This document shows positions 28,042-32,003 of a DNA stretch of 34,120 nucleotides, in pieces; within the stretch, counting starts at the first letter, position 1; the number at the start of each line of letters is the position of its first letter. The notes below the pieces were generated by a model. It did no database searches and was not told the DNA's origin. It saw only the letters and a program-made list of their open reading frames with translations. Origin of the DNA: Bacteroidota bacterium (GTDB taxonomy: Bacteria; Bacteroidota; Bacteroidia; Chitinophagales; Saprospiraceae); NCBI GenBank assembly GCA_024277695.1, contig JAJRUR010000060.1:1-34120 (forward strand). Direction: 5' to 3'. The position numbers and the translations under genes were made by a program.

Positions 28042-28082
28042 GATCTCATGTATTTTATAATAAAAAATATTAATATTTGATA

Positions 28083-29270
28083 ATGATTAGTAGCGCAGAG
28101 GCATTTAAGGTCGTAATGGATAGTACTGAAAACTTTGGTACGGAAAATGTATTCCTGGAGGATGCCGTCGGGCGTGTATTGAAGGAGGACATCCTTGCAG
28201 ATCGTGATTTTCCACCATTTGATCGGATATGTATGGATGGGATAGCGATCAACTCGGTCTCTTATGAAAAAGGACAGAGGATATATCCGATTCAGGGTAT
28301 GCAAGCAGCAGGAGCAAAGCAGATAGAGTTAGCATCTACCGAAGGATGTGTAGAAGTAGCCACAGGAGGGATCTTGCCCAAGGGTGCAGATAGTATTATA
28401 CGATTTGAAGATCTGGATATAAAAAACAATCAGGCAAAAATAACCAACGAAATAAAGCTCAGGGCAAATATTCATTATAGAGGGAGTGATCAAAAAAAAG
28501 GAGAAATCATTATAAAACGAAATAAAAAAATTTCTGTAGCAGAGATCGGAGTATTGGCAACCGTAGGACAATCCATGATCCAAGTCAGCAAGCTCCCAAA
28601 AATAGCGATCATCACCACAGGCAATGAATTGGTGGACATCGATAAGAGACCGGAGGCACACCAGATCAGAAAGTCCAATGTACATGTATTGTCTGCACTG
28701 CTAAAACAAGATCAGGTGGTTCCGTCCATATTTCATATTCGGGATGACCAAGCCAATATGCATGAGCAGTTAAGCGATATATTAGCAACACATGATGTGT
28801 TGATACTGAGTGGTGCAGTATCCAAAGGGCGTTATGATTTTTTGACCAAAGTTCTAGAGGATTTAAAAGTAAAAAAACTACTGCACTTTGTCGCTCAACG
28901 TCCCGGCAAACCCTTTTGGTTTGGAAAACAAGAGCGTAAGACGATTTTTGCTTTTCCCGGCAATCCTGTTTCAACTACAGTATGCTTTTTGAAGTATTGT
29001 CGTCCTTGGATAGACAAAACTGTAGGACTAAAAAGAGAAAAACCCATGGTGGTATTGGGCAATAAAGTAACTTTTAAACCGGATTTGACCTATTTTGCGC
29101 AAGCTAGTACGCATTTAGATGCACAAGGAAGAATGATCGCCACGGTAAATCATGGCAACGGTTCAGGAGATCTGGCACACTTGACACAAGTCGATGGTTT
29201 TGTAGAATTGACCAAGGGGCCCGACGAATACCATCCGGGTGAGATGTATCCCTTTATAAAGATGCGCTAA
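28083..29270 (+). CDS. moeA: Molybdopterin molybdotransferase MoeA
   Basis: VFLEDAVGRVLKEDILADRDFPPFDRICMDGIAI; TTGNELV; AQRPGKPFWFG...AFPGNPVSTTVCF. Confidence 0.96.
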   Translation: MISSAEAFKVVMDSTENFGTENVFLEDAVGRVLKEDILADRDFPPFDRICMDGIAINSVSYEKGQRIYPIQGMQAAGAKQIELASTEGCVEVATGGILPKGADSIIRFEDLDIKNNQAKITNEIKLRANIHYRGSDQKKGEIIIKRNKKISVAEIGVLATVGQSMIQVSKLPKIAIITTGNELVDIDKRPEAHQIRKSNVHVLSALLKQDQVVPSIFHIRDDQANMHEQLSDILATHDVLILSGAVSKGRYDFLTKVLEDLKVKKLLHFVAQRPGKPFWFGKQERKTIFAFPGNPVSTTVCFLKYCRPWIDKTVGLKREKPMVVLGNKVTFKPDLTYFAQASTHLDAQGRMIATVNHGNGSGDLAHLTQVDGFVELTKGPDEYHPGEMYPFIKMR

Positions 29271-29309: not shown

Positions 29310-29951
29310 ATGGCAAAAAGATTGGTAAAAATAGCTACCGAATTTAATATAGCTACCGCAACAATAGTTGAGTTCTTTCGAGATCGGGGATTCTCTATCG
29401 AAGACAAGCCTACTTCAAAAGTATCCGATCAGATGTACATTCTTCTCAAAGAAAAGCTCGGACAAGATAAATCAACTTCCAAAAAACTGACACATGTCAC
29501 CGAAAAAGGAGTAGCTCGTATGGTAGATATCACCCAAAAAAAAATCACCAAGCGCGTGGCAGAAGCTCAAGCAATCGTAACATTAGGTGATAAGATATTG
29601 CACACATTAGAAGCCGGAGATTTTGCTACTGCAAAAGGCTCCGTTTTTGATACGGCGCGTTTGGCAGGAATTATGGCAGTCAAGAAGACTGCAGAGCTCA
29701 TACCACTCTGTCACCTTCTGCCTATTACTTCTTGTGATGTGGATATCCAAAAAAAGGATGCCGAATCGCTCATAATTCGTTGTAAGGTAAAAACAACGTC
29801 CAATACCGGAGTAGAAATGGAAGCTCTACACGGGGCCACCGTGGCAGCACTCACTATTTATGACATGTGCAAAGCAATGTCACACGATATCGAAATTACA
29901 GATATTTATTTGTTAAACAAAACCGGAGGTAAAAGCGATTATGTCCGTTAA
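29310..29951 (+). CDS. moaC: MoaC (cyclic pyranopterin monophosphate synthase) with N-terminal IF-2-N-like domain
   Basis: Residues ~1-50 MAKRLVKIATEFNIATATIVEFFRDRGFSIEDKPTSKVSDQMYILLKEKL (IF2-N-like); residues ~59-213 LTHVTEKGVARMVDIT...KGSVFDTARLAGIMAVKKTAELIPLCH...TGVEMEALHGATVAALTIYDMCKA...KTGGKS (MoaC). Confidence 0.93.
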   Translation: MAKRLVKIATEFNIATATIVEFFRDRGFSIEDKPTSKVSDQMYILLKEKLGQDKSTSKKLTHVTEKGVARMVDITQKKITKRVAEAQAIVTLGDKILHTLEAGDFATAKGSVFDTARLAGIMAVKKTAELIPLCHLLPITSCDVDIQKKDAESLIIRCKVKTTSNTGVEMEALHGATVAALTIYDMCKAMSHDIEITDIYLLNKTGGKSDYVR

Positions 29952-31053
29952 AAAACATCAAAAACATACCAAACTCGTAAGGAGAAAATCAAGCGAATTT
30001 GGCCGCTTGGCTTGGTCTTTTATGGGTGCGAGTTGTACACACATCCAGCAAATGTTTGATCAAATCCGCCATCGCTTACCACATCTCCATCTAGCTTTTG
30101 TAGATGCTGATCATCAGCTGAGTATCGATTTTGGACGTGTAGAAAGTCAAGAAAAAAGAATCCGAACAGAACATTTTTACTGGAACCAATACGACAGCCA
30201 ATTCTTTTTTGATCGAGTAGATGCCACCTTAGTCAATGGAAATCACTATCCCGCAGAACGACAAATCGTCTTTATCCATCCGGAAAAAGAAGCATCACTC
30301 CAAAGACGGATACCGCAATTAACCCATGTAGATGCAGTGGTCAGCAAAAGCCCTCAAGATATCTATCCCTGGCTGATGGATATACTCCAACAGCAAGAGC
30401 AGGATGTGGCGATCTTGTCACCGGAGGATGATAAGGCATTATTGGGTTTTATCGAACATCAGATTTGTGTACATCGGGCACCCCTCAAAGCGCTGGTGCT
30501 GGCAGGGGGTAAAAGTACGAGGATGGGTACAGACAAAAGTCAATTGCACATCCACGGCCAAACTCAAGAAAACTATTTGGCAGATCTTTGTGTCGGTCTC
30601 GGCTTGGAGGTATATATCTCAAAGCGCCAAAGTACTGCATCGAGCTATCCGGTTATTGAAGATCGTTTTGATGATTTAGGTCCTTTTGGTGCGATATGTT
30701 CGGCATTTAGATATGACCCTAATACAGCTTGGCTGGTTATAGCCTGTGATTTGCCCAACTTGTCCGCCAAGCTTATCGGTGAGCTCATCCATCAACGCAA
30801 CCCCTCTAAATATGCAACGGCTTTCAGACTCCAATCAAAACCCTTCCCCGAACCATTGATCACTATCTATGAACCGAGAGCATATAGTAGATTATTGCAT
30901 TTTCTTTCTATTGGGCATTCTTGCCCCCGCAAAGTACTGATAAATTCGGATGTAGAGATTTTGATATCCCATGATGATTCTGCTTTTATCAATCTCAATA
31001 CACCTCAGGATTTAGCAGCTTATAAAAAAGCTAATTTTCCAACGGATGCGTAA
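29941..31053 (+). CDS. mobA: Molybdenum cofactor guanylyltransferase-like protein (MobA) with N-terminal MobB-like domain
   Basis: LKALVLAGGKSTRMGTDKSQLHIHG, LGPFGAICSAF, WLVIACDLPNLS; N-terminal ~170 aa including MGASCTHIQQMFDQIRHRLPHLHLAFVDADHQ; overlaps moaC by 11 nt. Confidence 0.88.
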   Translation: MSVKKHQKHTKLVRRKSSEFGRLAWSFMGASCTHIQQMFDQIRHRLPHLHLAFVDADHQLSIDFGRVESQEKRIRTEHFYWNQYDSQFFFDRVDATLVNGNHYPAERQIVFIHPEKEASLQRRIPQLTHVDAVVSKSPQDIYPWLMDILQQQEQDVAILSPEDDKALLGFIEHQICVHRAPLKALVLAGGKSTRMGTDKSQLHIHGQTQENYLADLCVGLGLEVYISKRQSTASSYPVIEDRFDDLGPFGAICSAFRYDPNTAWLVIACDLPNLSAKLIGELIHQRNPSKYATAFRLQSKPFPEPLITIYEPRAYSRLLHFLSIGHSCPRKVLINSDVEILISHDDSAFINLNTPQDLAAYKKANFPTDA

Positions 31054-31270: not shown

Positions 31271-31693
31271 CTAAGGTGTAGAATTGATCCAATAATGCCC
31301 ATCTTGGTAAAACTCTTTTTTCCAGATAGGTACGCGTTTTTTTAATGCATCGATCGCAGTTCTGCATGCTGCAAAAGCTGCATCTCGGTGTATGGCCGAG
31401 ACGGCTATGATGACTGCTATGTCTTTAATTTTGACGAGTCCTTTTCTATGATGCATCAAGATACGGGTGATCTCATAAGCACTAAATAGCTCATCAGCTA
31501 TTTTATGCATTTCTTTTAACGCCATCGCATCATAACAATCAAAATCAATCGATCGAACCGTTTTTTTCATATTAAGATCGCGAATACTACCGACAAAAAT
31601 ACAGTTGCCTCCTGAACGCTCATCTAATATGTACTGATATGCAGCATCCACTGAAAGCGATTCGTTTTTAATGTATATAGACTTATTGGTCAT
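31271..31693 (-). CDS. moaE: Molybdopterin synthase catalytic subunit MoaE
   Basis: GGNCIFVGSIRDLN, MHHRKGLVKIKDIAVIIAVSAIHRDAAFAACRTAIDALKKRVPIWKKEFY. Confidence 0.95.
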   Translation of the reverse strand: MTNKSIYIKNESLSVDAAYQYILDERSGGNCIFVGSIRDLNMKKTVRSIDFDCYDAMALKEMHKIADELFSAYEITRILMHHRKGLVKIKDIAVIIAVSAIHRDAAFAACRTAIDALKKRVPIWKKEFYQDGHYWINSTP

Positions 31694-31760: not shown

Positions 31761-32003
31761 TTATCCCCCGCTCACAGGTGGGATGATCGCAATCTCATCT
31801 CCTGCAGATAAGATAGTCTGATCGTCAGCTATGTTTTGATTTACTGCGATGCGATAGGTTTTTAACTGCCCAAATCCCTCATACATCCTATTGATCTTCT
31901 CCTTGAGATCTGCTACGCTTGATGATGTGTCGAGTTGGATCAGAAGACGAGGGGCACCGACGATATCACGAGCTATTCCAAAACACCATATTGAATATTC
32001 CAT
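31761..32003 (-). CDS. moaD: MoaD/ThiS family sulfur carrier protein
   Basis: 80 aa ending NQNIADDQTILSAGDEIAIIPPVSGG (C-terminal GG). Confidence 0.93.
   Translation of the reverse strand: MEYSIWCFGIARDIVGAPRLLIQLDTSSSVADLKEKINRMYEGFGQLKTYRIAVNQNIADDQTILSAGDEIAIIPPVSGG

Follow-up and report, generated by a model that had tools for sequence, protein, structure and literature searches.

Fusions of MoaC to a second domain are already represented among protein families. MoaC/MobA (PRK14500), MoaC/MoaB (PRK03604) and MoaC/MOSC (PRK14499) each join the enzyme to a partner from a cofactor-related family, which comes after MoaC in the profile. The N-terminal region of translation initiation factor IF2 has been described separately: it anchors IF2 to the 30S subunit, and within it the first 50 residues make up an independent, compact subdomain (PMC4611024). 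In E. coli, pull-down and photocrosslinking have established a direct interaction of IF2 Domain I with the C-terminal portion of NusA. On IF2, the contact has been mapped by crosslinks and modelling to N1 (residues 1-50) and the strands after it; on NusA, modelling puts it at KH2-AR1 (PMC12297416). The same authors point out that conservation is lacking both at the N-terminus of IF2 and at the C-terminus of NusA (PMC12297416), so that the E. coli contact may fail in Bacteroidota.

Here we describe a gene of an uncultured Saprospiraceae bacterium in which an IF2-N1-like domain and a short linker precede MoaC. It lies in a window of 34,120 nt, by which we mean the whole stretch of DNA analyzed. 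As in the known families, MoaC is joined to a second domain, whereas the partner is here an N-terminal, non-enzymatic IF2 domain. The PRK14500, PRK03604 and PRK14499 profiles cover the MoaC part of the fusion alone, far below their cut-offs, and no second enzymatic or MOSC domain was found with them. In the open-access literature, we found neither an IF2-N fusion to MoaC nor any account of N1 in TIR-type proteins.

Anatomy of the chimera and its operon

Alignment and structural modelling together show the predicted product to consist of an IF2-N1 domain, a flexible linker and an intact MoaC (Table 1). The first-pass annotation had recognized both ends of this arrangement, an IF-2-like domain at the start of the ORF and a full MoaC after the linker, and both identifications held.

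Table 1. Features of the fusion gene and its neighbours (window coordinates)
Feature	Position	Strand	Evidence
moaA	27034..28041	+	Pfam Radical_SAM, Mob_synth_C
moeA, ends 39 nt 5' of fusion gene	28077..29270	+	Pfam MoeA_N, MoCF_biosynth, MoeA_C
Fusion ORF, 213 aa, ATG to TAA, zero internal stops	29310..29951	+	window sequence, ORF list
IF2-N1-like domain, residues 1-50 (MAKRLVKIATEFNIATATIVEFFRDRGFSIEDKPTSKVSDQMYILLKEKL)	29310..29459	+	tblastn/blastn to own infB; AF2; purifying selection
Alternative in-frame ATG (M42)	29433..29435	+	sequence; disfavoured by residues 1-41 conservation
Flexible linker, residues 51-57 (GQDKSTS)	29460..29480	+	residues 53-58 pLDDT <50
MoaC core (cyclic pyranopterin monophosphate synthase), residues 58-213	29481..29948	+	NCBIfam and Pfam; invariant columns; Foldseek
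mobA-like nucleotidyltransferase	29941..31053	+	Pfam NTP_transf_3
moaE	31271..31693	-	Pfam MoaE
moaD (ThiS family)	31761..32003	-	Pfam ThiS

Residues 57/60-210 match MoaC in NCBIfam (PRK09364, E 1.7e-58; TIGR00581, E 6.7e-52) and in Pfam (E 7.6e-50). Scores are well above the curated cut-off for TIGR00581 (175.2 against 141.5 bits) and the cut-off for PF01967 (168.9 against 27), the latter profile being covered from 1 to 136 out of 136. All 36 columns that are invariant in a 32-sequence MoaC alignment, window copy included, are present in the fusion. A Foldseek search with the AF2 model retrieved the MoaC structures 2eey, 4pyd and 1ekr; significant matches of the whole model were MoaC structures only, which leaves the fold of the N-domain outside this test. 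The fusion thus shares with the MoaC family (TIGR00581, PF01967) a full catalytic core, the same fold and a standard operon, and differs from its MoaC relatives by about 57 extra N-terminal residues that form a separate domain and linker. Both cPMP synthase function and hexameric assembly are predicted for the MoaC part. MoaC relatives begin 1-5 aa ahead of the core, often with MSK, MAKKLSH or LTH, and the fusion junction reads KSTSKKLTHV, from which we infer that the ancestral moaC start codon was probably at T56 (29475-29477).

Within the same genome, residues 1-63 align with the start of an 886-aa IF-2 frame (tblastn, 49% identity, E 8e-13). This frame, on contig C138, is infB: it lies directly 3' of nusA and reads as full-length IF-2. 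Matches to these residues were likewise obtained at the start of infB-sized frames from nearly all relatives. The IF2_N family match that had been expected for residues 1-58 did not materialize, as profile searches with fusion residues 1-55/58 themselves gave none in Pfam or NCBIfam. Homology therefore rests on close relatives: 37 of the 44 members of the domain's alignment match PF04760 (IF2_N) at E≤0.05, weakly (best 6.5e-5), and these members are 44-56% identical to the fusion copy. On these comparisons, assignment of the domain to IF2-N1 of Bacteroidota is firm, while its membership of the wider family PF04760 is indirect. The genome's own infB carries two IF2_N stretches, and a profile comparison of the domain with the second was not significant (probability 1%).

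Relative to infB N1 of Bacteroidota (residues 1-50; PF04760), the fusion domain starts at the same codon and is 62% identical to the closest infB N-termini and 53% to its own. It differs in having I, A, F and L in place of the conserved V14, G15, L23 and F50, and in sitting on a cofactor enzyme instead of a translation GTPase. In the alignment-based AF2 model, the N-domain is well folded (pLDDT about 85-93) and the MoaC core confident, with residues 53-58 disordered; single-sequence AF2 of the isolated domain gave low confidence and another helix layout. An assembly join or frameshift is unlikely, because the ORF runs continuously and in frame without junction defect, the domain shares just 53 to 62% of its residues with the infB copies compared and is distinct from all infB sequences sampled, and purifying selection is also seen on it.

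The surroundings are conventional. The order moeA-moaC-mobA occurs in 33 of 80 named MoaC loci, and the entire moaA-moeA-moaC-mobA order with divergent moaE-moaD recurs in a relative (locus L078); the domain was therefore added to an otherwise ordinary moaC. The mobA-like gene begins (ATG at 29941) before the fusion gene has ended, which probably couples their translation. The MobA-like protein itself has about 180 residues ahead of its nucleotidyltransferase domain that are without Pfam match. No riboswitch was matched in the window with Rfam.

Origin of the N-terminal domain and distribution of the fusion

At the DNA level, the fusion and its own infB are 79.4% identical over the first 68 nt (blastn, E 5e-12). 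Both genes are matched from their ATG onwards, with no infB similarity upstream of it, and the likeness is much greater than chance would give. The IATE motif at positions 8-11 is found only in own infB and the fusion among 75 domain copies compared, and T10, D32 and K47 are states common to these two and rare in other infB genes. In a 50-column tree, the fusion domain groups with own infB, with support of 88/79 that is not decisive, and not with copies from immune proteins. The ATG-to-ATG similarity, the tree grouping and the common rare residues strongly suggest that the source was the infB of the same genome or of a close relative. Capture of an infB 5' end, as proposed in the first-pass annotation, is thus well supported. 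A horizontal source among the sampled infB genes is not favoured by the tree, whose 50 columns limit resolution.

The copy is old, as judged from synonymous sites, which are saturated relative to own infB: 8 of 11 fourfold sites differ, dS is about 5 by maximum likelihood and undefined by NG86, and dN is 0.28-0.30.

No other IF2-N1/MoaC fusion was found in 60 relatives, in 80 named MoaC loci or in 36 MoaC matches from 396 genomes across the phylum. Nor did the family-level search reveal a second case among the matches listed, which covered 258 MoaC-bearing genomes of 395 at the Saprospiraceae level, a family assignment deduced from the named relatives, and among which a fusion would be expected as one of the best-scoring entries. 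On these searches, a fusion conserved across the family is rejected and, being absent from every other MoaC protein sampled, the architecture is read as a derived state. It is known from one genome assembly and could be a short-lived oddity. As for mobile carriers of the IF2-N1-like domain, none was found on plasmids, and a phage carrier was rejected, the sole phage-collection match (MT835665) being a bacterial nusA-infB fragment. That entry (MT835665.1, 17465-17644; L185) is filed as bacteriophage (UNVERIFIED), carries bacterial nusA and infB, and is probably a mislabelled bacterial contig.

Translation, selection and possible roles of the added domain

Despite the saturated synonymous sites, the domain keeps 15 of the 19 positions that are strongly conserved, including 13 of the 16 that fall in residues 1-41. 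In neutral simulations, retention of at least 15/19 has a P of at most 0.0016, a value to be read as approximate since the simulation begins at the own infB sequence and uses a simple substitution model. This result is significant whether 30% or 50% of the divergence is assigned to the fusion branch; a codon-position binomial test gives P 0.52 at 30% and 0.006 at 50%. The chance of a stop-free domain under neutrality is 0.16-0.25. Retention of conserved residues on this scale shows, within the reach of comparative data, that the N-domain has been translated and under purifying selection since capture.

The first-pass annotation had seen no start codon near the MoaC boundary and regarded the fusion as the real product. 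The former statement needs correction, as M42 (29433) lies in frame 5' of the core, and a protein initiated there would comprise a complete MoaC behind a leader of 16-17 aa; the latter stands. Production of plain MoaC from this ATG, with the upstream part an untranslated infB relic, is highly improbable, because the conservation pattern across residues 1-41 and an ORF open from 29310 argue that 29310 is the start in use.

We propose that about 150-165 nt of an infB 5' end, encoding the compact IF2-N1, were copied from the same genome or a close relative and joined in frame to the 5' end of a moaC gene that lay in a conventional moaA-moeA-moaC-mobA operon. The N1 domain would then act as a flexibly linked docking module for a partner that IF2-N1 normally binds, be it NusA through its C-terminal part (hence RNA polymerase) or the 30S subunit. 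The first-pass annotation had likewise suggested a tether to ribosomes or another partner, but did not name NusA, for which binding of this IF2 domain is best documented in E. coli. The MoaC hexamer would show six N1 copies, and MoaC chemistry would be expected to be unchanged. We favour this reading because the captured piece corresponds to the compact IF2 subdomain, which contacts NusA in E. coli and belongs to the N-terminal region that anchors IF2 to 30S; by this analogy, we give recruitment of MoaC to NusA/RNA polymerase or 30S about an even chance, and we infer binding, partner and benefit of N1 on MoaC.

The main rival, somewhat unlikely in our estimate, is that the infB 5' end was kept because it gives translation an efficient, A-rich start or gives MoaC a soluble N-terminal tag, with no partner involved. 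Homology that begins precisely at the ATG, the A-rich first codons of the fusion and the loss of MoaC's own start codon, which would have called for a replacement, all speak for it. A dozen codons would have been enough for that purpose, yet conserved residues are kept across a 50-aa domain at saturated synonymous divergence, and the blastn match shows no infB similarity 5' of the ATG. Selection on the N-domain could nonetheless be for folding or solubility alone. We regard as improbable a neutral chimera, tolerated without benefit by a MoaC N-terminus that accepts additions: it would agree with a fusion restricted to a single genome among those sampled and with similar captures on other genes in the order, but the simulated retention of conserved positions and, with them, the modest chance of a stop-free domain tell against it. 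Finally, N1 might be an adaptor of the conflict-system type, mediating homotypic binding between domain-bearing proteins and recruited to MoaC for regulation, since relatives pair the domain family with TIR/SEFIR, LRR-Roc and helicase modules. We give this very little weight: a tblastn search of the own genome at E≤10 finds the domain in IF-2 and MoaC alone, and the MoaC copy groups with own infB, apart from immune copies.

Recurrent capture of infB 5' ends

A search for the domain in 398 order-level genomes returned mostly infB-sized frames among the matches listed, together with several other architectures. In a TIR (ThsB-like) protein of about 658 aa, two IF2-N1 domains stand ahead of an FGE-sulfatase domain (L154/L162, G241:C192:2465-3088); the two copies are 86% and 94% identical in DNA to that genome's own infB, so the captures are recent. 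An LRR-Roc GTPase has an infB 5' end at its N-terminus, with 79% DNA identity to host infB over 396 nt (L155, G224:C23:20624). IF2-N1-like domains are also found in a bSEFIR-type defence protein (PADLOC bSEFIR, E 5e-72; L157, G171:C17:166), at the N-terminus of a UvrD/AAA-like helicase in a 1048-aa frame (L156, G265:C11:46519) and in a phospholipase D-like MIT_C protein (E 5e-25; L153, G207:C244:6351). Two relatives have a small ORF between nusA and infB in which an IF2-N1-like domain is linked to a segment resembling the NusA C-terminus (L158/L159; G175:C6:41378, G155:C3:178782), an arrangement that fits the IF2-N1/NusA relation.

On these comparisons, several genes within the same order, coding for TIR, SEFIR, LRR-Roc and helicase proteins, have acquired the infB 5' end independently of one another. 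The MoaC fusion shares with the TIR-N1-N1-FGE, N1-SEFIR, N1-LRR-Roc and N1-helicase proteins the same domain and, in part, a local origin in the infB of the respective host. Their partners are signalling or defence-like, whereas here the partner is a biosynthetic enzyme. Whether repeated copying of infB 5' ends in Saprospiraceae and nearby families makes IF2-N1 a portable address tag to NusA/RNA polymerase or the ribosome is a speculation that we hold to be rather doubtful.

The fusion is a clean natural chimera that unites a core translation factor with an enzyme of cofactor synthesis, and its parent gene can be identified in the same genome. Should its N1 bind NusA or the ribosome, the fusion would offer an independent natural test of IF2-N1 binding in Bacteroidota, the NusA contact being known from E. 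coli only. Recurrent capture by defence-like proteins would, in turn, point to a general address-tag function.
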